Positions 31,863 to 60,579 of a stretch of DNA of 64,000 nucleotides are shown here, piece after piece (position 1 is the stretch's first letter; the number at the start of each line of letters is the position of its first letter). Location of the stretch: contig OY755045.1 of NCBI GenBank assembly GCA_963576565.1, positions 40,805,909-40,869,908 of the forward strand, given 5' to 3'. Made by a program: the position numbers and the translations under genes. This DNA is from Aspidapion aeneum. Its lineage: Eukaryota; Arthropoda; Insecta; Coleoptera; Brentidae. Below the pieces are notes generated by a model. That model ran no database searches, was not told the DNA's origin, and saw only the letters and a program-made list of their open reading frames with translations.

Positions 31863-32287
31863 TGTTTAATTACAAAATTAAATAGATTTTTTTCATAAAT
31901 CTTCATTTTTAGTTAAAATTATTATGTAAACACAGGTGATCTTGAGAAATTAGGTTTTAATAACATAAACTAACCTTCTCAAGTTTACCTATTTAAATTA
32001 TATAAATTATTTAATTTATAAAACAACACATTATATGGAATTTTATATTTTATAATTTATCACGAACCATAACAATTTTTAAGTATAAAAAGAGACGATT
32101 TATCTTAATAAAGCAGATTCAACATTTGATAGTTGTTCTCACTATAACTACTTAAGTTTACTGTACCATAACCTTCTTGGTCATTGCAGGGAGTGAGGCT
32201 GCTCCCTGGCAGTAAACTTTTTACTTTAATCCCGCTGCTTAACCAAGCCGAGTTAAGCAAGTGTAATTGTCAAGCACAGCTTGCACA
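31863..32287 (+). repeat. 5' LTR
   Basis: 425 bp, TG...CA. It differs from the 3' LTR by small deletions near its start (loss of a cttttttaccattttt-type stretch) and a few substitutions, so the insertion is not very recent. An AATAAA lies at about 32108. Confidence 0.9.
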
Positions 32288-32288
32288 T

Positions 32289-32306
32289 TGGTCCTTCGAA
32301 CCGGAT
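32289..32306 (+). promoter_or_regulatory. primer-binding site
   Basis: TGGTCCTTCGAACCGGAT begins one base after the LTR end. It starts with TGG and contains the complement of a T-loop GGTTCGAA. A second, partial copy (agcacattggtccttcg) lies at about 32309-32325, an apparent duplication of the LTR end plus the primer site. The tRNA is not assigned. Confidence 0.7.
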
Positions 32307-32390
32307 CAAGCACATTGGTCCTTCGACGAAAGAAACCACCGCCGACGCCCGTAAGAAGAACACCACTACAGCCCAACCGTCCACTAGAGC

Positions 32391-33060
32391 GACCTTCCAC
32401 CTACGAGAAAGTCCGTCCACCTGCCCGTACGACTGTCCGTACACTTGTCCTGTCCGAAGCCACTACGTAAGAGAGCCTCAACCAGAGCGACCTTCCACGA
32501 GAAAGTCCATCCATTCTACAAGCGTCGAAAAACCGTCCACCTAACCGTACGACTATCCGTACACTTGTCCTATCCGAAGCCACTACTCAAGAGAGCTTCA
32601 ACCAGAGCGACCTTCCACGAGAAAGTCCGTCCATTTTACAAGCTGCAAAAAGCCGTCCTCCTGACAGTACAACTAGCCGTACACTTGTCCGAAGCCACTA
32701 TTCAAGAGAGCTTTAACCAGAGCGACCTTCCACGAGAAAGCCCGTCCATTCTACAAGCTGCAAAAAGCCGTCCACCTGGCAGTACTACTATCCGTACACT
32801 TGTCCGAAGCCCCTATTCAAGAGAGGTTCAACCAGAGCGACCTTCCACGAGAAAGTCCGTCCATTGTACAAGCGTCAAAAAGCCGTCCACAGCCCGTACG
32901 ACTATTCGTACACTTGTCCTGTCCGAAGCTACTACGCAAGAGAGCTTCAACCAGAACGACCTTCCACGAGAAAGTCCATCCATTCTACAAGCGTTAAAAA
33001 GCCGTCCACCTGCCCGTACGACTGTCCGTACACTTGTCCTGTCCGAAGCCGCTACGCAAC
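32391..33060 (+). repeat. leader tandem repeats, 115-120 bp
   Basis: The landmark gaccttccac occurs at 32391, 32489, 32609, 32724, 32839 and 32958, giving units of 98-120 bp, with five nearly full repeats. Units carry cgtacacttgtcc and aagagagcttcaaccagag. They stay open in several frames on both strands, giving long spurious frames. The array lies between the primer-binding site and gag. Confidence 0.85.
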
Positions 33061-33376: not shown

Positions 33377-33382
33377 CACATT
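33377..33382. repeat. 6-bp target duplication, left copy
   Basis: CACATT here matches 49886-49891 exactly, directly outside both ends of the palindrome. Six base pairs is the duplication length of Polintons/Mavericks. Confidence 0.85.
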
Positions 33383-34280
33383 AGTAGATATACTATACGG
33401 GTTCTGGCTCACTTTTTCCATGTAAAGCCCCATAAGACGAAAACGTGGTCATTTTTTTGGATATGTCACACAATATTTAATTCGAGGCAGTAATTTCCCC
33501 ATAAGACGAAAACGTGGACATTTTTTCGATATGTCACAGAATATTGGAGGCAGTAATGTCTCCATGTCTTTTTTGTACTACCCAATCTAACCTTCAATAA
33601 ATGTTTGACCCTCAGTTGACTCTTTAGGTGTTGCAGTTCATCTTGTACCTTAGGCAGACCTGTAACTTGCTATATTTTGCTTGTTACAGGACTGTAGTAT
33701 TCACCTAATCAGTGAGTTACTTGAAAGCGATTTTATTGCTTTAACGAATGTCTATTGATTCTTTCAGTTTAAAGCCCTTTATTTTCTCCACTTAAAGATG
33801 TTAATTGTTTTAATAGATAGTTCGTTATTTTTTAAATTGTTAGTATTACTTACTTGGACTAGGTTCATAGTAAACACTTTAGAATATTTTTTACTTGTTT
33901 ATTTTTAAAAAGTTTTATATACAGATACAATTAATTATATAATCTTATTCATAGCATAGAGAAATATATTATGTCCTTCTATGATCATATATCTATAGCT
34001 AAGTAGACTTACAAGTTCTATTAATCATATTTAGACGGTATATTATAATAACATTACAGGTACTATGACTATCATTATATATATTCATTTTTACATGAAC
34101 ATATTAGGCGCTACTAAACTTTTGCTAATTCTAGAGGTTTTATAATATAATCTATAGGCAAAACCAAGATTAAATTTAGGTTATACTTATATATAGTTCA
34201 CTATTAAAAATATCTAACCAAACACAATAAAAACATAAACAAGACACCATTATTAAAATTACATTTAACCTAAGTTATCA
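33383..34280. other. outer non-coding end of the left arm
   Basis: AT-rich. A segment of about 70 bp (cccataagacgaaaacgtgg and following) occurs twice in tandem at about 33430-33560 but only once in the right arm. The remainder mirrors 49057-49885. No gene seen. Confidence 0.6.
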
Positions 34281-35993
34281 CTAAATCCTGTAGTGCCCCC
34301 ACGGTAACGTTTCATAACAGTCCTTTGAAATACATCTTTTATCATCCAGGGGACTTAGTCCAATTTTTGTTTGTTTAATGGAGTATAGTCTGTGCTTTTC
34401 GGATCTTATAAGATTTTGCGTAATCACCTTTTCTTGAAAGTTATTTAGGCAGTCGACATAGTCCTCAAATAATATTTTTGATTTTACAACGTTTTGTTTT
34501 ACACCCTTGGCCTTCTTAATCACTTTTGCAGCTTTACTCTTGCTGTCCACTACTTTTGTAGCATACATTTTAGCTCTAAGGCCAATAAAATGCGTCATTA
34601 TTTCGCCATTGTTTTCATCTTTCATCATGCCTAAAACTTTTTTATTCACCCTCGGAATGTTATATATGTTATCTTCAGCATAATCTGAGGTATCAAAGTA
34701 CTTGTCACAGTTGCTCTGTATTGATTCATAAATATCATGATTTTTTATGTTATAAACTAAACTATCAGTATCTGTGTATGCCACAGTACAATCCTTCCCA
34801 AAAGCTGGTACCATGTAGTTGTAGTGAAAATCATATATTGTTGTTTTGGCAATGTCCAAAATACACATTCCCACATATATCGGTTTATTAAAATATATTT
34901 CGGTTTTTTCAAGTTCTACGGCAACCAAGTTTTCATTGAATATTGTAATGCTTTTGAATTCAGGTCGAGAAATCAGTGCTTCTGCTCCGTATCGTCCATC
35001 CCATTTCTTGATTAATTTAACAACACTATGTTTTCTAATATTTTCCATGGTTTTACCAAACACGGCGTTGTTAATTAATTTAAAAAGGTTTTTCTCAAAA
35101 TCATTTTTAGCATTCTGTCTTAGTTGAGTATTCAAATCAATGTAGGATTTAAGCCATGCAGATTGCTTAAAGCATAAAATTTTATGAATTTTTTCAAGTT
35201 TTATACCAAGTTTTAGATTTCTATAATGAATTACGTATTCCGTTTTATTATATAGTGTGGCCATAAGTTTCTTATTTTTAGGGTTTTTCTCGTTAGGTGG
35301 GCAGCGATGTTCAGGACATAAGGGTAAGTCTGAGAAATAGTCATGTAATTCTACAGGAATGTACAAGTCGACTTCCAGGATGTATCCATTACTCGAGTCA
35401 TCTTCAATTTTATTAACATCAAAATTGAGCATTTCTTCACTTTCTAACCAATTAAATTTTTCATACGGCAGTTTCTGACTCATGCTATATCCATATTGGT
35501 TATTGATATCAAAATACATCAAAAAAGATGTTTCTTTGGTTAAATCATAGTTGGCCATATATTTATTATTGGCCTCCACATATCTTTTAGAGCATTGGCT
35601 TAACCCTCCTCTAATGCCGCGTTCTATAAAAGTCACCATAATATAGTCGGTCAAAAGCTCTAATTTTTGTTGCGTGCAATACAGCATGCAATCCCACGTA
35701 TAACCAGGAAGCGTGTAATAGTTAGCAGGATCCAGACCATACGTTTTATGACAGCTCTCTCTAAATCTCTGAAATACCTGCATTAAAAGTACTATGTCAA
35801 CTTTCATGTAGAGTTCCATGTAATCTTGTAGGGTTTTACAGCCAAAGCTTCTCCATACATTTTGGGCATGATCATAATCAGCAGGCAATGTTTCTCTACT
35901 TTCGAGTGTGTTAAAGAAATTAAGGTGCTCAGGCAAAGATGTGTCTCTTAATTTTTCCCAACTATTCATATAGTCATAGCAAAATACTCCTTT
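34281..35993 (-). pseudogene. protein-primed DNA polymerase B, C-terminal half (left arm)
   Basis: The longest ATG-started frame is 562 residues (35969 to 34281); the open frame extends back to the TAA at 35994. Palm motif A is MYFDINNQYG near residue 154, motif B LFKLINNAVFGKTMENIRKH, and motif C YTDTDSLVY near residue 400; LYMKVDIVLL fits exonuclease motif III. These define the DNA_pol_B_2 family of protein-primed polymerases. A 12-bp in-frame deletion has removed four residues after YRNLK that the right arm keeps. The frame is in phase with the N-terminal half, separated only by the TAA. Confidence 0.85.
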
Positions 35994-38003
35994 TTAAAAA
36001 ATAAGTTTGTATTGTTCGTCAGACAAGTTGGGAAATTCGTTTCTTACTAGTGGATACTCCTCAAGATATGAAGCTAGCTTGTCCAAGCTACTGGCCATGA
36101 AGCGGAACGAATCAATAAATCTAAATTCGATTAAATTTTCATTAATTTTTTTGGTAAATGCTATATATTTTTCTTTGTTAATTGGTAGCAAATTTATTGA
36201 TCCGTCCAAATTGGCGATGTTTTCAATTATCAAATGTCCATCATAGGAGCTAAGATTGTGGAATACTACAGGGACAGTATGACTATCCTGAAAGTTCAGA
36301 TTACAGCTTTCATGGGCTGGACCACGATACTCAGATGTAAGGTGACTATGATCGCGTATTTTCTTTTCACCAGCTAAAAAGTCCTGTTCACAAATATGAC
36401 ATTTTTTTGCATTGTTAAAGTCAGTTTTTTGCTTTTTACTTAAAGGCTCAAGGGGTAAGTCACAGAGAAATACAGTTTCCAAGTTTTCAGCGAAATCTAG
36501 TAACTGTTTACTGAACCATTCCATACAGTCAGGCCCCGTGTAAGATTTATAAAATGATAAAGAATCATCGTAGGCACATTTTACAAAATATCCTACCGAA
36601 CAAGGCACATGACTTTGATATTTTTGGGTTCTTTTTCCAATATTTTCTGCAACAGGAAGCAGTAAGCACTCAATATCCGAATAGATAATGAACGGTGCAA
36701 ATTGTTTATTTTTAAAGTTTTTAAATTCAACAACCTTTTTATCGCTACTTGGTAATTTCGGAACCACAAAACTGCCAATAACTTTGCAGTCTTTTATATG
36801 TTGAATAAGTCCAGCTTCAGAATAGAAGTAGTGCAGGCATCTATCACATACATAGGTTGCTTTTTTGGATTTGCTGATTTGACTACTTATTAGCCTTGAA
36901 AGATTTTTTACCCATACAAAGTGGTAAATTGGTGGCGAAAGGTCTTTAATCTGTTCATCATCCAAATAGTAATTATTTTGAATCATTAGCAAATTAACAT
37001 GTTTTTCGTTCCTTTCTTCAGAAATGTACGCAGGCAGTACTTTAAAACTGTTTTTATTAGGTTTTTGCAGGCGATACACATTTACGGATACATTATTTTG
37101 CTTTTCGAATCGGGCGACTTGGTTTAAAGTCATTGGAAATTTTATATTTTTTAAATTTAACACCTCTTGAGGACGCGGGTAGGATGAGATTCTATTTGAG
37201 TTTTTTTCAACAGGATATAATGCTGACACAATAGCCCAACCAAAACATAAATCGTCATTGTTTTCCACATTTACGCAAGCTTTACGCTTAAGTATTTCTT
37301 TGGGTAGCTCTAAATAAGATCCGGCTCTCATGCAGTTATATTTATTAACAGCAACAATAAGATTATTAATTTTTGTAAGAGACCATCCAGATTGATTTTG
37401 TTCAAATTCTTCCAAGTCAGTCAAAAGCAAAGTTTTTACATTTTTCTCAAACCAGTTTTTTAAATTTGTATTACGGTCAATAACCGCATTAGCGGTATTA
37501 AAGTGTTTTGTCTCACTTCCATGTTGTCCTTGTTTAATTATTTGAAAATCTCCACTTAAAATAGTGTTAACTTTTAACATATCCTCTTTTTTTAATGTAT
37601 TTTCTATTCTTCGTTTAAATAAACTAAAACAATCCTCTAAAAACTTTTTGGGATCCTTATGACGTAAATTTGTAATGACAGCACTTCTTACTCGGCTTTC
37701 AAAGGCTGATTTTATGTCTTCCCATTGTACACGATGTTTGGCTGTTTCCTTGGTGCCAATCGCACCACCAAACTTGAGGCTTTTTTGTTTTAAAATGTGC
37801 TTGCACTGTTTAACTTGTCCAAGGCACGCCGTCAAATGAGATTTTTCAGCAACTGAGGAAGCTTTTTTTAAAGCAATGCTTATTTGTCTACTGGCCAAAG
37901 CACAATCTTTTAGAATTTTTAAAATTGAAACATTTTTATCCATATCTTCTACCATACCAAGCTGACACATAATTTTATAAACCAATTTCGTTGCAAAACT
38001 CAT
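35994..38003 (-). pseudogene. protein-primed DNA polymerase B, N-terminal half (left arm)
   Basis: A 669-residue frame from ATG 38003. A basic, lysine-rich N-terminus is followed by a segment with NDDLCFGWAIVSALYP (Cys near 253) and KHVNLLMIQ (His near 335). A C2H2-like zinc finger (CDRCLHYFYSEAGLIQHIKDC minus last residue, 386-406) comes next, then exonuclease motif I IIYSDIECLL (Asp443, Glu445). A zinc/HNH-like module (CHICEQDF, DHSHLTSEYRGPAHESCNLN, about 535-570) and FHNLSSYDGHLI (exonuclease motif II) follow. The frame ends at TAA 35994-35996 and continues in phase as KGVFCYDYMNSW, so this is the first part of one polymerase of about 1,230 codons, inactivated by one stop unless read through. 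Confidence 0.85.
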
Positions 38004-38340
38004 TTTATTTTTTTGAATAGCACCAACTTCACTAAAACACTGTGTTGATAGAACTCAATAATGCACTTTCCTTGAAAAGTTATACCTAACTGACTGCAGT
38101 TCAACACGCTCCGCCCTTTTATAAGTGCTTTTCAGATTTACGTTAAGACTTGTCGAAAACAGGTTTATACTTGTTAGAAATGGGTTGCAGCTGTTTTAGC
38201 CCAATACATTTACCGCAAAGTTTTTAGTAAATCATGCAAACTTTAGTACCAACAATCATAAAATATATGTTTTTTTGTTAATTAGCAGGCATAGTACAAG
38301 TTTCCGTCAATTTTTATTTGTTTTGTTTGCTTCCTTTAGA
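38004..38340 (-). other. upstream region of the left polymerase gene
   Basis: Non-coding upstream of the polymerase start; mirrors 45061-45363. A TATAAA-like box (CTTATAAAAGGGCGG on the minus strand) lies about 115 bp upstream of the ATG, with a TCAGTT initiator-like string about 30 bp after it, so a polymerase II type promoter is plausible. The box is present in both arms. Confidence 0.5.
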
Positions 38341-39425
38341 TATTTTCTACAGCCCACCTTGAGTAGTAATACTTTTACCTTCGGGTACATACTTTTAGCC
38401 CTTTGAGTACCATCTTTCCCCCTTTGAGTCTCAACTTTCCACCCATCGAGTATCAACTTTATTCTCTTTGAGTACCAACCAATCGAACCGAACCCCCTTC
38501 GAGACTCTACTTTGCCCCCTTCGGATACCAACTTTTTCCCCTTTGAGTAGCAACGTTTATTCCTTCGAGTACCCACTTTACCCCCTTTGAGTACCAACTT
38601 CGTCTTCTTCGGATACCAACTTTCCCCCCTTCGCGTCTCAACTTTCCCCCCTTCGAGTCTCAACTTTTCACCAATCGTGTGTCAAGTTTCTTCTCTTCGA
38701 GGCACAACTTTTCCTTCTTCGAGAATCGACTTTCCCTTTTTTAGTACAAACTTCATCTTCTTCGGATATCAACTTTTTCCCCTTTGAGTAGCAACGTTTA
38801 TTCCTTCGAGTACCCACTTTACCCCCTTTGAGTACCAACTTCGTCTTCTTCGGATACCAACTTTCCCCCCTTCGCGTCTCAACTTTCCCCCCTTCGAGTC
38901 TCAACTTTTCACCAATCGTGTGTCAAGTTTCTTCTCTTCGAGGCACAACTTTTCCTTCTTCGAGAATCGACTTTCCCTTTTTTAGTACAAACTTCATCTT
39001 CTTCGGATATCAACTTTCCTCCCTTCGCGTCTCAACTTTCGCCCCTTCGAGTCTCAACTTTTCACCAATCGTGTGTCTAGTTTCTTCTCTTCGAGGCACA
39101 ACTTTCCCCCTTTTGAGTATCAACTTTCCCTTTTTTAGTACCAACTTCATCTTCTTCGGGTATCAACTTTCCCCCCTTCCAGTCTCAACTTTTCACCAAT
39201 CGTGTGTCAAGTTTCTCCTCTTCGAGGCACAACTTTTCCTTCTTCGAGAATCGGCTTTTCATTTTTTTGAGTACCCAACAACTTTCTTGCCTTCAAGTAT
39301 TAACTTCCCACTTCGAGTCTTAAGTTTCGCCCTTCGTGTCTTAACTTTCCCCCTTTGAGTTCCAACTTTTCTTCTTCGAGTATCAACTTTCCCCCCTTCG
39401 AGTCATAACTTTCATGCCTTCGAGT
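38341..39425. repeat. 22-bp minisatellite, left arm
   Basis: Degenerate tandem units of about 22 bp of the type ctttccccccttcgagtctcaa. Variants include gagtaccaac, ggataccaac and gtgtgtcaag. Roughly 45-50 units by length. A higher-order block of about 240 bp is repeated (38580-38790 and 38820-39030 share long identical stretches). Twenty-two is not a multiple of three, so the long frames here shift phase every unit and are unlikely genes. Confidence 0.85.
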
Positions 39426-41851
39426 GCTAACTCTCTCTGTTTCTTTCTATCATATATATTTTTTATTTTTCGCATGTAAACATCTTTTACTAATGTTTAT
39501 TATATTTACTATTGGGGTCTTGGCAAGGACAATCATACAATTTTGAGAATATATTTTGTTAGCCAAACTTTACTTGATTATATTATTTACTATTAAGTCC
39601 TCTAACTTAAACTGCTTACGCAATTTTCTATTTTAAAATTTAGAGGAATAAAACTTGTACTAGGCAAAAGATTAAAATTATTCTTGTGACCTATTTTTAT
39701 TTAATTTTTGCATATCTTTTAAGCACATCATAAAGAATGTGCTGATTTTTCTTTACGCATAGCTATCAATTTTGTGTATTACTTTACAGTTTGTTTAACT
39801 TTTGAGGATTTTAAACCGTACTAGGCGAATAAATCGGTAGGTGGTGTAATAATAAATAATCAATGGCTAAGATCAATCGACGAGTGACATAATGAGCAGC
39901 GACCAGTGTCGTTTTAACAATTTTGTGTTATTATTATTTAGGTTTAATCATTCTACTTTAAAATTTTTTGCGATTTTTGAATGTTTTTTAGTAACAGACG
40001 ATAGATTAGTACTCAACCAGTAACAGATGACGAAACAACCAGTGATTTTTAAGTTAAAACACCCTGATTAATTTTTTCACTAGTTTTGAAACATTTTTAG
40101 TAACTAACAAGTAATAACGTCATACGAGGAGGCCTTGGAGAAGTGACATATTTGTTAGATGTTTCTATTCTTTTAAAAATCTTTATTATAATGCGTTTTA
40201 CGATTGATTTAATTTTTAGTATTTTGTCGATAATTTAATACTTTTTTCATTATACATTTTTTTTTTAAGAGATATAACTTTTAAAATTTTTTTGCTTTGC
40301 GTACTATATTTTAATAATTGACTAAGCAATAGTTGCCTTTTTACGGTATTTTGACAGGTATATAAGATACCAAACTTGGTACTGCAACTTATTCAATATT
40401 AATTTAGAATTTATCCATTAGTGTAAAAAACTTAAAAAGATTAAAACATTTTTTAGTTAACAGCTTCATAGTCCTTAGCGTAGCCTTCTAATTTTTCTTT
40501 ATCAAATCACCTAAAACTTAAAAACTAAAATATTTTTGTTTTATATTTCATTAAGTTATTTAATATCTTTGGTAGTATGTAAGTACGTTATGGTCTATCT
40601 AACCAGTAATATATTATGGTTTTGCCTGCGCCTGCGCACTCACTAGTATTTTTTTAAGTCACGATCGTTATAAGTATTTTTTGTATGTATTTTTCGTGGA
40701 TTCCCAAGTATATAAAATATACATACAATCATGATGATTACTGATAGAAACGAGAGCGAGAATGATCAATGAGTTGCATGTTTGATGTTTCCGCGATCTA
40801 GAATTTTTTTTATCCTGAACGTTATCTTTGACACGTGTTTTTGCGTTTTATCAAAGTAACTGCCAATTCTACAAAAAGTTCACAAGATACAAAAGATATG
40901 TAATAACAAGTTGAGCATCCATCTATATATAGATCGATCACAGTTTTACCACAAGTTGTATGATATTTACAAGAAAGTAGAGGTAGCACATTCGGTAACG
41001 CAATTTTGCCATGACAAAGGAATGCTGGCACAAGTTGGAGGAGTGATAGTTTTGGCACCATAATAATTTAAACTGGTCCTTTTTGTCAGTCCATTCATTA
41101 AAGAAATCGGATTTAAATAACATGGATATTTATTAATACCATTATAATTAGCATTTATGTCACAAAAAAATATTTAATACCTACTTAGCATAACTATGTA
41201 ATGTATGTTTATAAATGATGAGACACAAACTAATTACTATTTCCAAAAGATAGTGTTTGTGAAGGATTAGTTTACTTTTTTAAATAAGTCTTACACCTAA
41301 TTTTAATTAGTTTTTAGATAGTTTTATGAGGGGTTTCTGCACCTAAACCCGAAATAATTAGACAGATCGACCGACAGAATGACCAAGACAACAACTACAA
41401 CAAAGGCGAGGAAGCGATTCAGACAAGTTTCAACAAGTCGTCAGCCTTCAACATCTGTAAAGTTTACAGTTAAAAATAATATATGTTTGTTAAAAGTATG
41501 CACAATAAAGCATAAAAGCTTTTTTATTTTTTTAACATGCACTAGTTTAATCTGTAAACGTATTTTTATGAATTTCGTGGATTTGAGGATTAGAGAAGCC
41601 TTAAATTAAATTGCCTTAAGTAACCTTAGCTGAACCATATACGTGAACAGGCAAACGCATTTTTCATTAATTCAATTTGATGTCACAGAAAAGCCCTATG
41701 TATCTTAAAGTAACCTTATACAGGTAATTAGTAAGTATCTACATACTTTTAGAGGGGGCTTTTTTTGCCAAATGTGCTTCAACTACTAAAATTTAATTAT
41801 TTCTACACCAATAATAATCAATTTCAATAACTATGGAACAAGGTTTGACTC
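39426..41851. other. inner part of the left arm, no clear gene
   Basis: AT-rich 2.4 kb mirrored by 42038-44450. Two short frames are kept in both arms: 40822-41061 (minus, mirrored 42815-43066) and 41379-41609 (plus, mirrored 42286-42510). The second begins MTKTTTTTKARKRFRQVSTS, a short basic N-terminus, but then becomes low-complexity. Integrase, ATPase and capsid motifs were looked for by eye and not found. Confidence 0.5.
41379..41609 (+). CDS. small basic ORF near the palindrome centre (left arm), doubtful
   Basis: 76 codons from ATG 41379, oriented opposite to the left polymerase. The first 24 residues are Thr/Lys/Arg-rich, like small basic nucleoproteins, but a possible splice donor (CT|GTAAAG) follows immediately. 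The remainder (FFIFLTCTSLICKRIF) does not look like a known family. Kept with one substitution in the right arm. Conservation is weak evidence because the whole arm is duplicated. Confidence 0.2.
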   Translation: MTKTTTTTKARKRFRQVSTSRQPSTSVKFTVKNNICLLKVCTIKHKSFFIFLTCTSLICKRIFMNFVDLRIREALN

Positions 41852-42037
41852 TAACAGTTGGAAGCATATTAAAACGCCTAGGAAGGGCATTATTTATAGG
41901 ATACCAAATTGCGTATTGAGCTTTTATTAAATCATTGTTATTTTTGTAAGTTTGTTATATAAGTTTTGAATAACAACGATAGTGTAAAAGCATATAGAGA
42001 TTATTTTGCGCTAATCACTTTTATTTTCTTGGCTGAG
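41852..42037. other. 186-bp centre between palindrome arms
   Basis: AT-rich, unique to the element, and not self-complementary as a whole. No coding sequence. Confidence 0.75.
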
Positions 42038-42285
42038 GAGTCAAACCTTGTTCCATAGTTATTGAAATTGATTATTATTGGTGTAGAAATAATTAAATTT
42101 TAGTAGTTGAAGCACATTTGGCAAAAAAAGCCCTCTCTAAAAGTATGTAGATACTTACTAATTACCTGTATAAGGTTACTTTAAGATACATAGGGCTTTT
42201 CTTTGACATCAAATTGAATTAATGAAAAATGCGTTTGCCTGTTCACGTATATGGTTCAGCTAAGGTTACTTAAGGCAATTTAATT

Positions 42286-42510
42286 TCAGGCTTCTCTAAT
42301 CCTCAAGTCCACGAAATTCATAAAAATACGTTTACAGATTAAGCTAGTGCATGTTAAAAAAATAAAAAAGCTTTTATGCTTTATTGTGCGTACTTTTAAC
42401 AAACATATATTATTTTTAACTGTAAACTTTACAGATGTTGAAGGCTGACGACTTGTTGAAACTTGTCTGAATCGCTTCCTCGCCTTTGTTGTAGTTGTTG
42501 TCTTGGTCAT
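42286..42510 (-). CDS. small basic ORF near the palindrome centre (right arm), doubtful
   Basis: Mirror copy of 41379-41609: 74 codons on the minus strand, with a Cys-to-Arg change and a slightly different end. Same caveats as for the left copy. Confidence 0.2.
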   Translation of the reverse strand: MTKTTTTTKARKRFRQVSTSRQPSTSVKFTVKNNICLLKVRTIKHKSFFIFLTCTSLICKRIFMNFVDLRIREA

Positions 42511-44454
42511 TCTGTCGGTCGATCTGTCTAATTATTTCGGGTTTAGGTGCAGAAACCCCTCATAAACTATCTAAAAACTAATTAAAATTAGGTGTAAGAC
42601 TTATTTAAGAAAGTAAACTAATCCTTCACAAACACTATCTTTTGGAAATAGTAATTAGTTTGTGTCTCATCATTTATAAACATACATTACATAGTTATGC
42701 TAAGTAGGTATTAAATATTTTTTTGTGATATAAATGCTAATTATAATGGTATTAATAAATATCCATGTTATTTAAATCCGATTTCTTTAATGAATGGACT
42801 GACAAAAAGGACCAGTGAAAATTATTATGGTGCCAAAACTATCACTCCTCCAACTTGTGCCAGCATTCCTTTGTCATGGCAAAATTGCGTTACCGAATGT
42901 GCTACCTCTACTTTCTTGTAAATATCATACAACTTGTGGTAAAACTGTGATCGATCTATATATAGATGGATGCTCAACTTGTTATTACATATCTTTTGTA
43001 TCTTGTGAACTTTTTGTAGAATTGGCAGTTACTTTGATAAAACGCAAAAACACGTGTCAAAGATAACGTTCAGGATAAAAAAAATTCTAGATCACGGAAA
43101 CATCAAACATGCAACTCATTGATCATTCTCGCTCTCGTTTCTATCAGTAATCATCATGATTGTATGTATATTTTATATACTTGGGAATCCACGAAAAATA
43201 CATACAAAAAATACTTATAACGATCGTGACTTAAAAAAATACTAGTGAGTGCGCAGGCGCAGGCAAAACCATAATATATTACTGGTTAGATAGACCATAA
43301 CGTACTTACATACTACCAAAGATATTAAATAACTTAATGAAATATAAAACAAAAATATTTTAGTTTTTAAGTTTTAGGTGATTTGATAAAGAAAAATTAG
43401 AAGGTTACGCTAAGGACTATGAAGCTGTTAACTAAAAAATGTTTTAATCTTTTTAAGTTTTTTACACTAATGGATAAATTCTAAATTAATATTGAATAAG
43501 TTGCAGTACCAAGTTTGGTATCTTATATACCTGTCAAAATACCGTAAAAAGGCAACTATTGCTTAGTCAATTATTAAAATATAGTACGCAAAGCAAAAAA
43601 ATCTTAAAAGTTATATCTCTTAAAAAAAAAATGTATAATGAAAAAAGTATTAAATTATCGACAAAATACTAAAAATTAAATCAATCGTAAAACGCATTAT
43701 AATAAAGATTTTTAAAAGAATAGAAACATCTAACAAATATGTCACTTCTCCAAGGCCTCCTCGTATGACGTTATTACTTGTTAGTTACTAAAAATGTTTC
43801 AAAACTAATGAAAAAATTAATCAGGGTGTTTTAACTTAAAAATCACTGGTTGTTTCGTCATCTGTTACTGGTTGAGTACTAATCTATCGTCTGTTACTAA
43901 AAAACATTCAAAAATCGCAAAAATTTTTAAAGTAGAATGATTAAACCTAAATAATAATAACACAAAATTGTTAAAAACGACACTGGTCGCTGCTCATTAT
44001 GTCACTCGTCGATTGATCTTAGCCATTGATTATTTATTATTACACCACCTACCGATTTATTCGCCTAGTACGGTTTAAAATCCTCAAAAGTTAAACAAAC
44101 TGTAAAGTAATACACAAAATTGATAGCTATGCGTAAAGAAAAATCAGCACATTCTTTATGATGTGCTTAAAAGATATGCAAAAATTAAATAAAAATAGGT
44201 CACAAGAATAATTTTAATCTTTTGCCTAGTACAAGTTTTATTCCTCTAAATTTTAAAAATAGAAAATTGCGTAAGCAGTTTAAGTTAGAGGACTTAATAG
44301 TAAATAATATAATCAAGTAAAGTTTGGCTAACAAAATATATTCTCAAAATTGTATGATTGTCCTTGCCAAGACCCCAATAGTAAATATAATAAACATTAG
44401 TAAAAGATGTTTACATGCGAAAAATAAAAAATATATATGATAGAAAGAAACAGA
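42511..44454. other. inner part of the right arm, no clear gene
   Basis: Mirror of about 39426-41380. Differences from the left arm are isolated substitutions and one-base indels, for example near 42720-42830. Confidence 0.5.
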
Positions 44455-45010
44455 AAGAGTTAGCACTCGAAGGCATGAAAGTTATGACTCGAAGGGGGGA
44501 AAGTTGATACTCGAAGAAGAAAAAGTTGGAACTCAAAGGGGGGAAAGTTAAGACACGAAGGGCGAAACTTAAGACTCGAAGTGGGAAGTTAATACTTGAA
44601 GGCAAGAAAGTTGTTGGGTACTCAAAAAAATGAAAAGCCGATTCTCGAAGAAGGAAAAGTTGTGCCTCGAAGAGAAGAAACTTGACACACGATTGGTGAA
44701 AAGTTGAGACTCGAAGGGGGGAAAGTTGAGACGCGAAGGGGGGAAAGTTGGTATCCGAAGAAGACGAAGTTGGTACTCAAAGGGGGTAAAGTGGGTACTC
44801 GAAGGAATAAACGTTGCTACTCAAAGGGGAAAAAGTTGGTATCCGAAGGGGGCAAAGTAGAGTCTCGAAGGGGGTTCGGTTCGATTGGTTGGTACTCAAA
44901 GAGAATAAAGTTGATACTCGATGGGTGGAAAGTTGAGACTCAAAGGGGGAAAGATGGTACTCAAAGGGCTAAAAGTATGTACCCGAAGGTAAAAGTATTA
45001 CTACTCAAGG
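44455..45010. repeat. 22-bp minisatellite, right arm
   Basis: The same repeat as 38341-39425 in inverted orientation (gaaagttgagactcgaaggg type), about 25 units. It is roughly half the left array; this accounts for most of the 620-bp length difference between the arms. Confidence 0.85.
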
Positions 45011-45363
45011 TGGGCTGTAGAAAATATCTAAAAGAAGCAAACAAAACAAATAAAAATTGACGGAAACTTGTACTATGCCTGCTAATTAACAAAAAAACAT
45101 ATATTTTATGATTGTTGGTACTAAAGTTTGCATGATTTACTAAAAACTTTGCGGTAAATGTATTGGGCTAAAACAGCTGCAACCCATTTCTAACAAGTAT
45201 AAACCTGTTTTCGACAAGTCTTAACGTAAATCTGAAAAGCACTTATAAAAGGGCGGAGCGTGTTGAACTGCAGTCAGTTAGGTATAACTTTTCAAGGAAA
45301 GTGCATTATTGAGTTCTATCAACACAGTGTTTTAGTGAAGTTGGTGCTATTCAAAAAAATAAA

Positions 45364-48300
45364 ATGAGTTTTGCAACGAAATTGGTTTATAAAATTATGT
45401 GTCAGCTTGGTATGGTAGAAGATATGGATAAAAATGTTTCAATTTTAAAAATTCTAAAAGATTGTGCTTTGGCCAGTAGACAAATAAGCATTGCTTTAAA
45501 AAAAGCTTCTTCAGTTGCTGAAAAATCTCATTTGACGGCGTGCCTTGGACAAGTTAAACAGTGCAAGCACATTTTAAAACAAAAAAGCCTCAAGTTTGGT
45601 GGTGCGATTGGCACCAAGGAAACAGCCAAACATCGTGTACAATGGGAAGACATAAAATCAGCCTTTGAAAGCCGAGTAAGAAGTGCTGTCATTACAAATT
45701 TACGTCATAAGGATCCCAAAAAGTTTTTAGAGGATTGTTTTATTTTATTTAAACGAAGAATAGAAAATACATTAAAAAAGAGGATATGTTAAAAGTTAAC
45801 ACTATTTTAAGTGGAGATTTTCAAATAATTAAACAAGGACAACATGGAAGTGAGACAAAACACTTTAATACCGCTAATGCGGTTATTGACCGTAATACAA
45901 ATTTAAAAAACTGGTTTGAGAAAAATGTAAAAACTTTGCTTTTGACTGACTTGGAAGAATTTGAACAAAATCAATCTGGATGGTCTCTTACAAAAATTAA
46001 TAATCTTATTGTTGCTGTTAATAAATATAACTGCATGAGAGCCCAAAGAAATTCTTAAGCGTAAAGCTTGTGTAAATGTGGAAAACAATGACGATTTATG
46101 TTTTGGTTGGACTATTGTGTCAGCATTATATCCTGTTGAAAAAAACTCAAATAGAATCTCATCCTACCCGCGTCCTCAAGAGGTGTTAAATTTAAAAAAT
46201 ATAAAATTTCCAATGACTTTAAACCAAGTCGCCCGATTCGAGAAGCAAAATAATGTATCCGTAAATGTGTATCGCCTGCAAAAACCTAATAAAAACAGTT
46301 TTAAAGTACTGCCTGCGTACATTTCTGAAGAAAGGAAGGAAAAACATGTTAATTTGCTAATGATTCAAAATAATTACTATTTGGATGATGAACAGATTAA
46401 ATACCTTTCGCCACCAATTTACCACTTTGTATCGGTAAAAAATCTTTCAAGGCTAATAAGTAGTCAAATCAGCAAATCCAAAAAAGCAACCTATGTATGT
46501 GATAGATGCCTGCACTACTTCTATTCTGAAGCTGGACTTATTCAACATATAAAAGACTGCAAAGTTATTGGCAGTTTTGTGGTTCCGAAATTACCAAGTA
46601 GCGATAAAAAAGTTGTTGAATTTAAAAACTTTAAAAATAAACAATTTGCACCGTTCATTATCTATTCGGATATTGAGTGCTTACTGCTTCCTGTTGCAGA
46701 AAATATTGGAAAAAGAACCCAAAAATATATATAAGTCATGTGCCTTGTTCGGTAGGATATTATGTAAAATGTGCCTACGATGATTCTTTATCATTTTATA
46801 AATCTTACACGGGGCCTGACTGTATGGAATGGTTCAGTAAATAGTTACTAGATTTCGCTGAAAACTTGGAAACTGTATTTCTCTGTGACTTACCCCTTGA
46901 GCCTTTAAGTAAAAAGCAAAAAACTGACTTTAACAATGCAAAAAAATGTCATATTTGTGAACAGGACTTTTTAGCTGGTGAAAAGAAAATACGCGATCAT
47001 AGTCACCTTACATCTGAGTATCGTGGTCCAGCCCATGAAAGCTGTAATCTGAACTTTCAGGATAGTCATACTGTCCCTGTAGTATTCCACAATCTTAGCT
47101 CCTATGATGGACATTTGATAATTGAAAACATCGCCAATTTGGACGGATCAATAAATTTGCTACCAATTAACAAAGAAAAATATATAGCATTTACCAAAAA
47201 AATTAATGAAAATTTAATCGAATTTGCTTCATGGCCAGTAGCTTGGACAAGCTAGCTTCATATCTTGAGGAGTATCCACTAGTAAGAAACGAATTTCCCA
47301 ACTTGTCTGACGAACAATACAAACTTATTTTTTAAAAAGGAGTATTTTGCTATGACTATATGAATAGTTGGGAAAAATTAAGAGACACATCTTTGCCTGA
47401 GCACCTTAATTTCTTTAACACACTCGAAAGTAGAGAAACATTGCCTGCTGATTATGATCATGCCCAAAATGTATGGAGAAGCTTTGGTTGTAAAACCCTA
47501 CAAGATTACATGGAACTCTACATGAAAGTTGACATAGTACTTTTAATGCAGGTATTTCAGAGATTTAGAGAGAGCTGTCATAAAACGTATGGTCTGGATC
47601 CTGCTAACTATTATACGCTTCCTGGTTATACGTGGGATTGCATGCTGTATTGCACGCAACAAAAATTAGAGCTTTTGACCGACTATAATATGGTGACTTT
47701 TATAGAACGCGGTATTAGAGGAGGGTTAAGCCAATGCTCTAAAAGATATGTGGAGGCCAATAATAAATATATGGCCAACTATGATTTAACCAAAGAAACA
47801 TCTTTTTTGATGTATTTTGATATCAATAACCAATATGGATATAGCATGAGTCAGAAACTGCCGTATGAAAAATTTAATTGGTTAGAAAGTGAAGAAATGC
47901 TCAATTTTGATGTTAATAAAATTGAAGATGACTCGAGTAATGGATACATCCTGGAAGTCGACTTGTACATTCCTGTAGAATTACATGACTATTTCTCAGA
48001 CTTACCCTTATGTCCTGAACATCGCTGCCCACCTAACGAGAAAAACCCTAAAAATAAGAAACTTATGGCCACACTATATAATAAAACGGAATACGTAATT
48101 CATTATAGAAATCTAAAGCAAGCGTTAAAACTTGGTATAAAACTTGAAAAAATTCATAAAATTTTATGCTTTAAGCAATCTGCATGGCTTAAATCCTACA
48201 TTGATTTGAATACTCAACTAAGACAGAATGCTAAAAATGATTTTGAGAAAAACCTTTTTAAATTAATGAACAACGCCGTGTTTGGTAAAACCATGGAAAA

Positions 48301-49056
48301 TATTAGAAAACATAGTGTTGTTAAATTAATCAAGAAATGGGATGGACGATACGGAGCAGAAGCACTGATTTCTCGACCTGAATTCAAAAGCATTACAATA
48401 TTCAATGAAAACTTGGTTGCCGTAGAACTTGAAAAAACCGAAATATATTTTAATAAACCGATATATGTGGGAATGTGTATTTTGGACATTGCCAAAACAA
48501 CAATATATGATTTTCACTACAACTACATGGTACCAGCTTTTGGGAAGGATTGTACTGTGGCATACACAGATACTGATAGTTTAGTTTATAACATAAAAAT
48601 CATGATATTTATGAATCAATACAGAGCAACTGTGACAAGTACTTTGATACCTCAGATTATGCTGAAGATAACATATATAACATTCCGAGGGTGAATAAAA
48701 AAGTTTTAGGCATGATGAAAGATGAAAACAATGGCGAAATAATGACGCATTTTATTGGCCTTAGAGCTAAAATGTATGCTACAAAAGTAGTGGACAGCAA
48801 GAGTAAAGCTGCAAAAGTGATTAAGAAGGCCAAGGGTGTAAGACAAAACGTTGTAAAATCAAAAATATTATTTGAGGACTATGTCGACTGCCTAAATAAC
48901 TTTCAAGAAAAGGTGATTACGCAAAATCTTATAAGATCCGAAAAGCACAGACTATACTCCATTAAACAAACAAAAATTGGAAGTCCCCTGGATGATAAAA
49001 GATGTATTTCAAAGGACTGTTATGAAACGTTACCGTGGGGGCACTACAGGATTTAG
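45364..49056 (+). pseudogene. protein-primed DNA polymerase B (right arm), multiply broken
   Basis: It mirrors the left-arm polymerase: start ATG 45364, stop 49056. Breaks not shared with the left arm are a frame change near 45780, another near 46035 (loss around AGSYLELP), one near 46725, an in-frame TAG near 46840, a lost segment and frame change near 47225 (around the IDSFRFM region), and a frame change near 48595 after TDTDSLVYNIK. The TAA before KGVFCYDYMNSW (about 47332) is shared with the left arm. Palm motifs are intact in 47360-48694, and the four residues after YRNLK (deleted on the left) are present. It cannot yield a full polymerase. Confidence 0.85.
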
Positions 49057-49885
49057 TGATAACTTAGGTTAAATGTAATTTTAATAATGGTGTCTTGTTT
49101 ATGTTTTTATTGTGTTTGGTTAGATATTTTTAATAGTGAACTATATATAAGTATAACCTAAATTTAATCTTGGTTTTGCCTATAGATTATATTATAAAAC
49201 CTCTAGAATTAGCAAAAGTTTAGTAGCGCCTAATATGTTCATGTAAAAATGAATATATATAATGATAGTCATAGTACCTGTAATGTTATTATAATATACC
49301 GTCTAAATATGATTAATAGAACTTGTAAGTCTACTTAGCTATAGATATATGATCATAGAAGGACATAATATATTTCTCTATGCTATGAATAAGAATATAT
49401 AATTAATTGTATCTGTATATAAAACTTTTTTAAAATAAACAAGTAAAAAATATTCTAAAGTGTTTACTATGAACCTAGTCCAAGTAAGTAATACTAACAA
49501 TTTAAAAAATAACGAACTATCTATTAAAACAATTAACATCTTTAAGTGGAGAAAATAAAGGGCTTTAAACTGAAAGAATCAATAGCCATTCGTTAAAGCA
49601 ATAAAATCGCTTTCAAGTAACTCACTGTTTAGGTGAATACTACAGTCCTGTAACAAGCAAAAGATAGCAAGTTACAGGTCTGCCTAAGGTACAAGATGAA
49701 CTGCAACACCTAAAGAGTCAACTGAGGGTCAAGCATTTATTGAAGGTTAGATTGGGTAGTACAAAAAAGACATGGAGACATTACTGCCTCCAATATTCTG
49801 TGACATATCGAAAAAATGACCACGTTTTCTTCTTATGGGGCTTTACATGGAAAAAGTGAGCCAGAACCCGTATAGTATATCTACT
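49057..49885. other. outer non-coding end of the right arm
   Basis: Mirror of 33383-34280, with one rather than two copies of the roughly 70-bp terminal duplication. It ends GTATAGTATATCTACT at 49885. The first 17 codons of the frame starting at 49835 are element sequence, not gag. Confidence 0.6.
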
Positions 49886-49891
49886 CACATT
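49886..49891. repeat. 6-bp target duplication, right copy
   Basis: CACATT, identical to 33377-33382, in codon phase with the gag-like frame on both sides. Confidence 0.85.
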
Positions 49892-50308
49892 TTACACCAT
49901 GAATGGGTAAACTACGAACTAGGCAGATTGCCCACATTGAAAGAAGTTCTTCAGTACTTAATTGAAAGAATTGAAGAGTTGAACAAGAGCCCATCAACTG
50001 ATTTTAAGTACGATGAAATTTTTCACATTCCAAACGTCATTATGGATCATTTAGATGATATCCGAGACATCCCAAGTATGGATGAAGAAACAGTTAAAGA
50101 ATTACAACAGGTTTATGAGATGAGCCGTCAGTGCCTTAGAGACATTCAAACCTCTGGGCAAAATACAGAAACTTGGGACCTACCATTGATGAAATTATTG
50201 TCAAAGAAATTGACATCTGAACTAGAAAATTCGCACGATATTTGGTTCCAAGGGTTTCAAAATAAAATTCCCACAATCGAAGATTTTTTTCAGTATTTAA
50301 GAAAATAA
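49886..50308 (+). pseudogene. gag-like gene, second part
   Basis: From the target duplication the frame reads HILHHEWVNYELGRLPTLKE, then VLQYLIERIEEL, and remains open for about 140 codons to a stop at 50308. The LPT-x-x-x-VLQYL phrase resembles the capsid-region segment of insect LTR-retrotransposon gag proteins (LPT...LVEFLE). It is acidic and helical-looking, with no zinc knuckle. The ATG at 49835 lies in the palindromic element, so the annotated start must be in the left part (33140). Confidence 0.55.
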
Positions 50309-51112: not shown

Positions 51113-51556
51113 TTAATTACAAAATTAAACAGATTTTCTTTTTTTACCATTTTTCATAAATCTTATTTAATCATTTTTAGTTAAATTTATTATTTAAACA
51201 CAGGTGATCTTGAGAAATTAGGTTTTAATAACATAAACTAACCTTCTCAAGTTTACCTATTTAAATTATATAAATTATTTAGTTTATAAAACAACACATT
51301 ATATGGCATTTTATATTTTATAATTTATCACGAACCATAACAATTTTTAAGTATAATAAGAGAGGATTTATCTTAATAAAGCAGATTCAACATTTGATAG
51401 TTGTTCTCACTATAACTACTTAAGTTTACTGTACCATAAGCCTTCTTGGTCATTGCAGGGAGTGAGGCTGCTCCCTGGCAGTAAACTTTTTACTTTAATC
51501 CCGCTGCTTAACCAAGCCGAGTTAAGCAAGTGTAATTGTCAAGCACAGCATGCACA
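51110..51556 (+). repeat. 3' LTR
   Basis: 447 bp, TGTTTAATTAC to AGCATGCACA, followed by the CTGAC duplication. It is closer to the solo LTR (19819-20256) than the 5' LTR is at the start region, since it keeps the ttaccatttttcat stretch. Confidence 0.9.
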
Positions 51557-51561
51557 CTGAC

Positions 51562-53061: not shown

Positions 53062-55733
53062 TTAGTTTACTAGCTCAAACGGCTTCACTCTTTTTAGTCG
53101 TCGAACTAGCATAGTATTGTCTAGAAGCTGAATTGCTTCCACATTCACATGCCGATGGAGTCTATCTTCATGGCTTTTTGCGTACTTTTTTATAGTCTCT
53201 GCTACAGTTTCGATTTTTAGATCTCGATGAAGGTCACTATTTCGAACGTACCAAGGTGCATTCACAATGTTTCTTAATACTTTATTTTGAAATCTCTGTA
53301 CAACTAGAATGTTACTCTCTTTAGCACAACCCCATAGTTGAATACCATATGTCCATACTGGTTTCAGTATTTGTCTATAAAGCAGTAACTTATTATGAAT
53401 TGTTAAATTGGACTTCCTTCCAATTAGCCAGTTCATTTTTCTATACCTTATCTCAAGTTCTTCTTTTTTTTTCTTAACATGTGCTTTCCAGCGCAATTTG
53501 GTATCAAGTGTCATACCTAGATATTTTGCCTGATTCGAATATGGTACTGGAATGTTGTTAATTGTTATTTGTATGTGATTTATATTTTTGTTTGTAAAAT
53601 CAACATGAATTGATTTGGTTCCATTTAATTTTATTCGCCACTTTGTGGTCCAACTGTGAATTTGGGTGACTGCATCCTGAAGTTTCTCTATGCATTTTTC
53701 AATAGATTTTTCTACCGTCAATAAACCAGTATCATCGGCAAATGTTGCTAAGTGACAATTTTCTGGCTTTGGGATATCACAAGTGAATAATAAGTATAGA
53801 TAAGGGCCTAGTACGCTACCCTGGGGCACGCCTGCTTGAATTTCTCTTAAATTTGAGTATGAGTCTTCCTGTTTTACTCTAAAATGTCTATCAGATATGT
53901 ATGATTCCAAAATATCCGAATACTGTTTTGGCAGAAACCTTTTTAGTTTAAAATTAAGGCCTTCATGCCACACTTTGTCAAATGCTTGTGCTACATCTAG
54001 AAAAACTGCAGAACAAACGTTTCCCTCTTCTAGTGCTTCTAGTGCTTTTTCTATTATATTAGTAATTCTGTGTGTACTTGATCTATCGTGGAATGCTTGT
54101 CTCGAAAACCAAATTGATGAGATGGAATAATTTCTTGTCTTTCTATGATGGGTTTTATTCTTTTAAGCAATAATTTTTCATAGAGCTTGGATATAATTGG
54201 CAGCAAAGATATTGGCCTGTAAGATGACACGTCATGGAGTGGTTTTCCCGGTTTTGGAATCATGATAACTTCTGCAACTTTCCACAGTTTAGGTACGTAC
54301 CTAAGCCTAAAAGACGCATTAATTAGGTTGCATAGTTTTACGATAGCTTTTCTGGGGAGTTGTTTTATGACTACCCCGTTAATAAGATCATACCCTGGGG
54401 CTTTTTTCGAATTAATATTTTTGATTTCTGTTAATATTTCTTTTGGTGATGTAAGCTTAATATGGTCCTCGATTTGATGGGGTTCATTTAAATGAAAGTG
54501 TTCATCTGGTGCTTCGTGGGGCTGAAATGTTTTTTCTAAATGACTTGCAAAAATATCTGCTTTTTCTTCGTTACTCCTTGCCCACTGGTTGTTAGGTTTT
54601 CGTATGGGTGGAATTTGGATAATTGGTCTTTTAAAATCTTTGGTTGCTTTCCAAAGGGAATAGTCGGTATTTTTATCATCTGTAAGCTCATTAAGAAAAT
54701 GGTTTATAGATTCATTTTTTATTACTAGAATTTCTCGCCTAATGCGCTGCGTCATGTTGTTGAGATTTGTTTTGTCCCGAGGATCACGGCTTTGTTGCCA
54801 CTTTCTTCTTAGTTTCCTTTTTTCCAATATAAGGTCTCTAATTTCCTTTGGATAGTTTTTTCCCTTAAAAATTCTCTTTGGTTTTGGACTGTTTTCCCAA
54901 GCTGCTTGTTGAATATTTGTAACAAAATAATCAACTTCTTTATCGATTTGTTCTGGCGTTTGCAATGGTACTGATAGGTTTATTTTTTCTGACAGACTTT
55001 GTTTAAAACTAATCCAGTCAGTCAGTTTATTAACTAGTGAGATATTTGCTTCTTTCTTTATTATGTTTTTGCTAAGAGTTAGAATAATAGGTGAATGATC
55101 TGAGTGTAAATCAAAACTTTCTTCTATATCTACAAAACTTAAAGATATATTTTTTACTATAAAAAAATCAATTAGATCTGGAATTTTTCCTGGATCTGTT
55201 GGATAGTATGTGGGCTTACCAGTTGATATCGGCTCACATTGATATTCACTAATAGCTTGCAAAAGTTCTTTTCCTTTAGAGTTCGTCAGTCTAGATCCCC
55301 AGTAGGTATTTTTTGCATTAAAGTCACCTCCAATTATAAAACGGTTTCCTAATTTTCTGAGAAAATTAAGATATTGATTTTTCTTTAGTAAGTGCCTTGG
55401 TGGTATATAGACAGCACTTATGACTAATGTATATGTTTTGGTTTTTACACTTACTAATGTAGCTTGAATCTCTATGGTTTTATATCCCATCTCCTCACAG
55501 TGTGATATATTTTCTTTAATTATTACAGCACTTCCCCCATGTGCAGTATTGCTAGGGTGAGTTGTATGATACACTTTATAACCTTTAAATTTAATGTGAG
55601 ACTGGTTAGTGAAATGCGTTTCTGACACAAGACAGACGTCAATTTTTTCTATGTCTAGAATAACTTGCAAGTCTTGCTGATGTTGCAAGAGACCATTGGC
55701 ATTCCAAGCTAGGATTCTAAGATTACTGACCAT
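53062..55733 (-). pseudogene. Jockey-like ORF2: endonuclease and reverse transcriptase
   Basis: It starts MVSNLRILAWNANGL (55733) and is open to about 54054. The rest, to the stop at 53062, is in another frame. The N-terminal half is an APE-type endonuclease: WNANGL, LVSETHF, GGDFNAKNTYWGS, and SDHSPI near residue 210. The reverse transcriptase follows, with KAPGYDLINGVVIKQLP, YRPISLLPIISKLYE, then after the frameshift QAGVPQGSVLGPYLY and the catalytic FADDTGL. The frame change sits between HQFGFRDKHST and the DKVWHEGL motif, inside the palm domain. The enzyme nicks DNA and copies its own RNA at the nick. Its start overlaps the end of ORF1 by about 10 bp. Confidence 0.9.
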
Positions 55734-57108: not shown

Positions 57109-57276
57109 GATATATTATTTATAATACACATTGTATATAGATTCTCAACACAGGTATCTCGCGCGCGATGTTTTTTGTAAACAAAACAAACTCCGACTTT
57201 GACCTCGTTAGCACTATCATGCAGGTACGATGCAATATAACCGTACGGAACTGCGATCGATTGAATACTGCTAATT

Positions 57277-60365: not shown

Positions 60366-60579
60366 GTATAAATGCAGAAGTTGTAGAGTTTATCCAAACC
60401 GGACAGAAAATATTATCTAACAAAACAAATAAATGTCGCAAAGTTAAAAAAGTCCCATTTGAAGAGCGATCTCTCCCAAAAATTACAGCGATAATTGCAC
60501 AGGCAGAGTAGAAAAAATTATAGCGATAATCGCGCTACAGGTTTTTTAAATTGTTAGGTATTTGTTTCTTAAAATAAAA

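Follow-up and report, generated by a model that had tools for sequence, protein, structure and literature searches.

The stretch of DNA analyzed here (64,000 nucleotides from the beetle Aspidapion aeneum, hereafter the window, corresponding to C8:40805909-40869908 of the 1.286-Gb genome) contains at positions 33383-49885 a palindrome of 16,503 bp, whose arms each carry a family-B DNA polymerase gene and whose borders resemble those of Polintons. The question raised by this locus is whether such a structure represents an inverted dimer, produced by accident during protein-primed replication, or a distinct mobile element whose inverted repeats cover its polymerase gene; an earlier note based on the window had offered both possibilities. 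We find that the palindrome is the normal form of a recently active multi-copy family and not a one-off dimer, and that the two arms of an element are templated from each other. The reading that we favor, to which we assign a probability of roughly 0.6, is that of a Polinton-type element that has taken on the permanent form of a snap-back palindrome, with its own polymerase for replication and with integration in trans.

In the window the pairing of the arms can be recognized in ungapped inverted blocks of 75-1,413 nt each, nearly all of them 98-100% identical, and in gapped alignments (97.5% over 5.4 kb and 97.7% over 2.8 kb), both of which confirm the arms delimited in the earlier note. The left arm is longer than the right (8,469 versus 7,848 bp), mainly because a block of 22-bp minisatellite is longer on the left. 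The element starts with AGTAGATATACTATACGGGT and ends with ACCCGTATAGTATATCTACT, the 20-base ends being identical in inverted orientation, and CACATT abuts it on either side, so that the AG...CT ends and the 6-bp duplication reported before are indeed present at the borders. Insertion of the palindrome as a unit is supported by the 6-bp duplications and by the unlike flanks. Polymerase B does occur once per arm, though both genes are broken in this copy (the left one is split by an in-frame stop, the right one lies in several pieces), and these breaks, like the large indels, differ between the arms. The idea that the 186 bp between the arms are the center of the family had to be abandoned. At other loci an axis has this piece on one side and an inverted copy of it on the other; the 40 matches listed include 15 such pairs, mostly 1.4-1.5 kb apart. 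The spacing of inner markers is 3,257 bp in the nearest copy (C3:54.80 Mb) versus 1,987 bp in the window: the window copy has no true axis, and an internal deletion of ~1.27 kb, which also removed the left-arm partner, has left 186 bp of right-arm sequence unpaired.

The terminal 20-mer has 57 exact copies in the genome, versus none for the reversed word used as a control. Twenty-seven of 30 forward tips pair with a downstream reverse tip at a spacing of 4.07-26.97 kb, and 23 of these 27 paired elements measure 16.0-22.1 kb; since the genome searches scored the best candidates only, these and all other copy counts are lower bounds. All 11 full-size copies that were read (the window and ten fetched loci) are palindromes with (AGT)2-like AG...CT ends (AGTAGATATA...), and the 6-bp duplication is exact in 10 of them, while in the remaining one (L021/L022) it matches at 4 of 6 positions. 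The main aligned blocks of the arms are 97.5-99.9% identical. Arm length is 7.4-9.4 kb in the 10 copies with definable limits, and the arms span the whole element except 186-471 bp (1,173 bp in L015); in L019/L020 the aligned stretch stops short of the axis, and ~1.57 kb of polymerase gene is missing from one arm. The order along each arm is the same, from the tip to the polymerase gene (C-terminal end outward), a non-coding and mostly minisatellite-bearing region, and the axis. The search for further copies that the earlier note had suggested thus returned the same build, with its own 6-bp duplications, at every full-size locus read, which supports the alternative of a distinct polymerase-only element.

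The subfamilies share the tip and the polymerase (the outer 4.8 kb, ~98% identical), while the inner 4 kb of subfamilies A (L009, L011, L013, L015, L027) and B (L017, L021, L023, L025, with L019 as a relative) cannot be aligned to each other, each inner version being present in both arms. A third group, subfamily C, includes the window copy. The tip pair separated by 4.07 kb (L036; G000:C1:83397778-83402446; duplication ATTAAC) is not a full palindrome: end repeats of ~450 bp, 94% identical, surround a partial and broken polymerase ~89% identical to that of the family, and L036 is most simply viewed as an internal-deletion derivative. With three mismatches the tip pattern has 176 matches, versus 19 for the reversed control, and among the matches listed further tip variants (for example AGTAGATGTAC...) pair likewise. 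Other arrangements of tips were also observed: an 804-bp inverted pair of variant tips, perhaps a miniature derivative (G000:C6:37063426-37064229); a second copy of the terminal 518 bp ~1.3 kb inside an element, in the same orientation (G000:C4:34425185-34445819); and an array of element ends consisting of seven same-strand variant tips (AGTAGATAGGCTATACGGGT) in 17 kb, several of them ~605 bp apart (G000:C3:82920595-82937302).

The relationship between the arms was studied by counting, in the 11 elements, private substitutions, defined as those absent from the other arms in the alignment of a segment. Five segments were used (tip, polC, polN, up and innerB); arms that matched under 80% of the reference segment were dropped, which kept 22, 19, 20 and 10 of 22 arms for the first four, and innerB comprised eight subfamily-B arms, with gapped columns and minisatellite blocks left out. 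Thirty-four private substitutions occur in both arms of their element and 92 in one arm only. If the arms were independent, fewer than 0.02 both-arm coincidences would be expected (a rough bound), and we conclude that the arms have been copied from each other. The ratio of both-arm to one-arm changes is highest in L027 (6:1), L023 (8:3), L025 (8:5), L017 (5:5) and L013 (3:4). When left and right arms are permuted, the true pairing comes out first of 24 in subfamily B (27 differences against a mean of 69); in subfamily A, based on tip and up only, it is one of the best 2 of 120 (24 differences against a mean of 34.8). In the inner 2.5 kb of subfamily B there are 1-5 substitutions between the arms of one element versus 7-15 between elements, and the same 1-bp deletion in the polymerase gene is present in both arms of one element (L025 and L026), but not in the three other subfamily-B arms compared.

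With respect to coding content, no internal stop is present in 31 of the 37 polymerase matches scored (the best 37 of 3,680 candidates). The exonuclease and polymerase motifs (DINNQYG, KLMNNAVFGKTMEN and YTDTDS in the query) are invariant or nearly so in an alignment of 20 sequences, consisting of the query, 17 named insect proteins and 2 proteins without a source name. The nearest named polymerases are those of beetles; annotated relatives with roughly 40-62% identity come from Sitophilus, Anoplophora, Diabrotica, Photinus, ants and wasps, and the enzyme was not found in the bacterial genome contigs or viral contigs searched. Pfam DNA_pol_B_2 has no match in it at E values up to 1, and sequence and profile searches of the PDB returned no polymerase. 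The AlphaFold2 model of the C-terminal 837 residues (predicted local distance difference test score of 90) has phi29 DNA polymerase as its top fold match in the PDB (E 1.5e-19, template modeling score 0.69 to the target), with RNA-primed family-B enzymes ranking below (best 2.6e-8); as judged from this predicted fold, the polymerase is of the protein-primed family-B type. The N-terminal 440 residues resemble, also by fold, a protein of Drosophila-associated adintovirus 2 and the polymerase B of a MELD virus. Cys270, which starts a helix (270-279), and His378, in a strand (377-382), are both invariant in the 20 sequences; Cys and His are placed likewise, at a helix and in a strand, in the vOTU domain of polinton polymerases as described in the accessible part of PMC11071308.

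When open reading frames (ORFs) are taken as they stand and aligned from the C-terminal end, the ratio of nonsynonymous to synonymous rates (dN/dS) is 0.20-0.27 between subfamilies A and B and 0.21-0.23 to the L019 lineage, suggesting that the gene was under selection while the subfamilies split. No gene besides the polymerase, and in particular no integrase, ATPase, protease or capsid gene, was recognized in the ORFs scanned. Four arms contain 26 inner ORFs of at least 80 amino acids (aa); ten were scanned, none of them among the six of L019, the remainder being mostly alternative minisatellite frames, and together with three from L017 and L025 these 13 gave no meaningful Pfam or PHROG match. 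Seven of the ten, six of them outside minisatellite frames, were also run against PHROGs at E 0.01. The only other matches, weak ones to zinc-finger and endonuclease VII domains, are located inside the polymerase.

The unpaired axis measures 199-471 bp in eight copies, in addition to the values already given for L015 and the window. Loops of subfamily A are 429-431 bp in three copies and 199 bp in L011, those of subfamily B ~470 bp, and loops of one subfamily are found in either orientation. The B loop, bordered in L017 by AGTAGTCCTATACT and its complement, is 78% identical over 174 bp to the terminal repeat of a resident capsid-bearing Polinton (L039; E 4e-34) and 68% identical over 407 bp to the Polinton end of L037; none of 200 block shuffles reaches 100 bits, versus 147 observed. 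A genome search with this loop returned 13 near-identical loops (93-100%) and 30 weaker matches, which include pairs in inverted orientation, 16-19 kb apart, that enclose six Polinton ATPase genes, a single match at the midpoint of the subfamily-C palindrome at C3:54.80 Mb, and single matches between inverted pairs of the 186-bp piece at C1:32.70 and C3:57.54 Mb. The axis at C1:32.70 Mb (L042) has 810-bp arms (99.4% identical) and a 555-bp loop, 91% identical over 488 columns to the same resident Polinton end, starting from the second base of that end; ~30 bp resemble the Polinton end on both sides, and the flanks beyond are inverted, not directly repeated. On these alignments, what sits at the axis of both B and C is a Polinton-type terminal repeat. 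The 186 bp of the window do not match the Polinton end. With a Polinton-type end at the axis, the notion of an inverted dimer arising in protein-primed replication fits the origin of the family, while as an account of the window as a single accident it does not hold.

Capsid, ATPase and integrase genes are found elsewhere in the genome, in resident Polintons. One copy encodes a double jelly roll capsid protein and an integrase with rve and chromo domains, has the 5' start AGTAGTTTA, and contains an ORF of 132 aa that is weakly adenain-like (E 0.068); a second copy (L040) encodes a polymerase of 1,277 aa. Together, L037-L041 represent a resident family of canonical Polintons that has capsid, integrase, ATPase and a polymerase of its own. 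There are 71 ATPase matches in the genome (PF04665, 120 of 120 candidates scored), whose assignment, in the cases examined (L030, L031, L037), rests on neighboring genes because PF04665 also matched 2 of 14 prokaryote controls, and at least 126 listed capsid matches (PF21738, of 1,082 candidates); most of the listed capsid and ATPase ORFs are uninterrupted, which suggests recent Polinton activity. PF03175 polymerases of another clade lie near such genes, as in the case of capsid C9:49447367 near polymerase C9:49452714 and of ATPase C2:7082336 near polymerase C2:7089697. A profile search of the genome with PF00770 found nothing, but it matched no control either and is hence uninformative. None of the 126 listed capsid and 71 ATPase matches falls less than 30 kb from any of the 27 paired elements, nor does one lie within 25 kb of any of the 37 polymerase matches. 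A listed ATPase is, however, present within 15 kb of only 1 of the 126 listed capsid matches; these lists are therefore not complete, and the case for the absence of such genes from the palindromes depends mainly on the elements read. The resident integrase, together with AGTAG-type ends, means that an integrase which could act in trans is available, and we infer that the palindromes use it. Copies L037 and L038, the latter of which seems interrupted, had suggested a two-part system, in which capsid Polintons without polymerase B are complemented by the palindromes; this idea, and a Polinton border proposed at L038:4396, were rejected in view of the PF03175 polymerases near capsid and ATPase genes and of the L040 polymerase.

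Mirrored substitutions, mirrored deletion and mirrored inner segments would all be accounted for by snap-back copying. The polymerase of the linear element would start at the identical tips and replicate the element by strand displacement; the displaced self-complementary strand would snap back into a hairpin, whose duplex end could prime again, and copying round the loop would rebuild the entire palindrome from one arm, any change being mirrored into both. An integrase from the resident capsid-bearing Polintons, which also have AGTAG-type ends, would insert the palindrome in trans with a 6-bp duplication. The family may have originated when a strand with a Polinton terminal repeat at its end folded back, its 3' end coming to lie opposite the 5' end of the repeat; extension would then have copied the neighboring polymerase segment in inverted orientation, leaving the Polinton repeat as the loop. 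This fold-back origin predicts inverted flanks, as they are seen at the Polinton-type ends of B and C. Overall, we infer that the palindromes replicate as hairpins and integrate in trans.

Several observations weigh against this reading. Little or no mirroring is seen in L021 (1:11), L015 (1:8), L009 (0:9), L011 (0:22), L019 (0:1) and the window (2:23). In 8 of 11 cases the short and little-diverged tip is closest to an arm of another element and in 2 to its own partner, with one tie; in part this is because one-arm changes weigh on the comparison. The center of subfamily A has no match to the Polinton end, and L042, the best match at an axis, was read over 2.2 kb, with tips and polymerase outside. 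The polymerase of the Polinton with the axis-like end belongs to a different clade, and its only significant similarity to the palindromic polymerase is a 32-aa match at the Cys (vOTU) motif (E 0.004); the Polinton end at the axis may therefore have been captured rather than inherited. A PDB fold search with the N-terminal model gave nothing at E<1e-3, and one pair within subfamily A, with few changes and a misaligned N-terminus, has a dN/dS of 0.59.

The main rival for the mirroring is gene conversion between the arms after insertion in the chromosome, a process by which the arms of sex-chromosome palindromes are homogenized. Long inverted repeats can convert each other, and mirrored private changes do exist; however, mirroring appears to predate insertion, as copies with differently broken polymerases (L009, L011, L015 and the window) have 3 mirrored and 62 one-arm changes, versus 23 and 24 in the five copies with both frames open (L013, L017, L021, L023, L027). 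Although L021 fits this split poorly, copying between arms seems mainly to precede insertion, and with large indels and the polymerase breaks of the window unmirrored we consider conversion unlikely as the process that keeps the arms alike. A somewhat less unlikely, but still doubtful, view is that the palindrome is a passenger akin to a defective interfering genome, palindromic for a replication advantage and fully dependent on Polintons, with the polymerase as dead cargo. This would agree with the lack of a recognized integrase or capsid gene of its own in the scanned ORFs, with the frameshifted polymerase copied into both arms of L025/L026 and with partial derivatives such as L036, but is at odds with the predominance of polymerase matches free of internal stops and with the dN/dS values between subfamilies.

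It could also be that the copies are independent inverted dimers or snap-back accidents of an ordinary, complete Polinton with the same polymerase. Parvoviral replication yields snap-back genomes (adeno-associated virus, in the accessible part of PMC8235507), and the Polinton-type end at the axis of subfamilies B and C is what such accidents might leave. Yet the arm order is the same in 11 of 11 full-size copies and the axis is common within a subfamily, so the copies descend from palindromes; no non-palindromic full-length relative was seen (L036 being a 4-kb copy with a partial polymerase), and no listed capsid or ATPase match is near the paired elements, a weak argument given the incomplete lists. 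Recurrent accidents are on this basis quite improbable. Fold-back read chimeras can also give palindromes in an assembly, but the flanks would then be mirrored too, and they differ; furthermore, exact 6-bp duplications in 10 of 11 copies, arms that differ by 2-3% in the most diverged copies and loops of one subfamily in either orientation make an artifact hardly credible.

Among known systems, Polintons/Mavericks are alike in their AG...CT ends, 6-bp duplication, protein-primed polymerase B and similar total length, and by its ends, duplication and enzyme the palindrome works like, and probably descends from, an element of this kind. Vertebrate Mavericks, in the accessible part of PMC8097293, are 12.7-24.6 kb long, with (AGT)2 or (AG)3 ends and inverted repeats of 46-1,447 bp (mean 402). 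The palindromes differ in that their inverted repeats measure ~7.4-9.4 kb, whereas Polintons have unique genes between repeats of tens to about 1,500 bp; integrase, ATPase, protease and capsid genes are not recognized in them, and the gene is carried twice, in arms that have been copied from one another. Given the departure from two defining features, gene content and repeat length, we do not call the palindrome a Polinton. Adintoviruses and MELD viruses, which match the N-terminal part of the polymerase by fold, are capsid-encoding viruses, unlike the palindromes, where no capsid gene is recognized. Foldback transposons (FB, Galileo) have very long inverted repeats rich in short tandem repeats, but are not known to carry polymerase B and have a different duplication length. 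Cytoplasmic linear plasmids of the pGKL type differ in being extrachromosomal and fungal, and are not known to be palindromic. Incomplete particles of adenovirus contain snap-back subgenomes. The snap-back subgenomes of adeno-associated virus, self-complementary with a terminal repeat and either symmetric or with an unpaired loop, come closest in structure as far as the accessible part of PMC8235507 goes, although they are made during virus replication, while the palindromes are an inherited, transposing, multi-copy genomic family. The pGKL-type plasmids are derived from Polinton-like elements by loss of capsid genes and have a TP-vOTU-Exo-Palm polymerase, according to the accessible part of PMC11071308. 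A palindromic polymerase-only element was not found in the literature searched, which lies outside Repbase, bioRxiv as such and most subscription papers, nor is one described in the accessible parts of PMC6431247 and PMC6035795; the palindromic build is not a known one for such elements.

The features of the window copy are collected in Table 1. Direct repeats of ~388 bp, 98% alike, lie on either side of the palindrome (31903-32290 and 51171-51559), and the ORF at 49820-50308, which crosses from the right end of the element into the flank, encodes a DUF1759 domain in its flank-derived portion; the element therefore probably interrupted a retroelement, presumably BEL/Pao-like, which would give an upper bound on the age of the insertion. 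Directly to the left of the palindrome is an array of ~115-120-bp tandem repeats (32388-33060). Elsewhere in the window, long ORFs at 7412-10764 and 14379-16419 appear by eye to be pol and gag of a Pao/BEL retrotransposon, and those at 53062-57114 and 60550-61620 resemble, also by eye, non-LTR (long terminal repeat) retrotransposons (endonuclease plus reverse transcriptase, and gag-like).

Table 1. Features of the palindromic element in the window.
Feature	Position	Strand	Basis
Target-site duplication CACATT, left	33377..33382		Sequence at element border
Target-site duplication CACATT, right	49886..49891		Sequence at element border
Palindrome left arm	33383..41851	+	Inverted blocks, gapped arm alignment
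Palindrome right arm, inverted copy	42038..49885	-	Inverted blocks, gapped arm alignment
186-bp unpaired stretch, right-arm sequence	41852..42037		Inverted pairs elsewhere; inner-marker spacing; axis at a locus sharing the inner arms
Terminal 20-mer AGTAGATATACTATACGGGT, left end	33383..33402	+	57 exact genome copies
Terminal 20-mer, right end	49866..49885	-	Exact tip search
Left-arm polymerase gene, one in-frame TAA	34284..38054	-	ORFs 34281-35993 and 35994-38054; = C8:40840192-40843962
Right-arm polymerase gene, broken into several open pieces	45313..49056	+	ORF list
22-bp minisatellite block, inner left arm	38396..39437		Repeat family D2
22-bp minisatellite block, inner right arm	44433..44900		Repeat family D3

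To our knowledge, protein-primed replication of Polintons has been inferred rather than shown. Arms that record the use of templates make replication of this type testable from sequence: mirrored changes would mark replication cycles, and one-arm changes the time since insertion. Long palindromes are expected to be unstable in animal genomes, and the family provides a natural set of many ~18-kb palindromes maintained in one. It may also illustrate how a virus-like element could turn into a parasite that encodes only a polymerase. We consider it an even bet that these elements form a class of obligately palindromic, self-templating transposons, which have discarded virion and integrase genes, carry their polymerase gene in each arm, regenerate through a hairpin from one arm and use the integrase of resident Polintons; if this is true, a snap-back defective genome would have turned into a successful inherited element.

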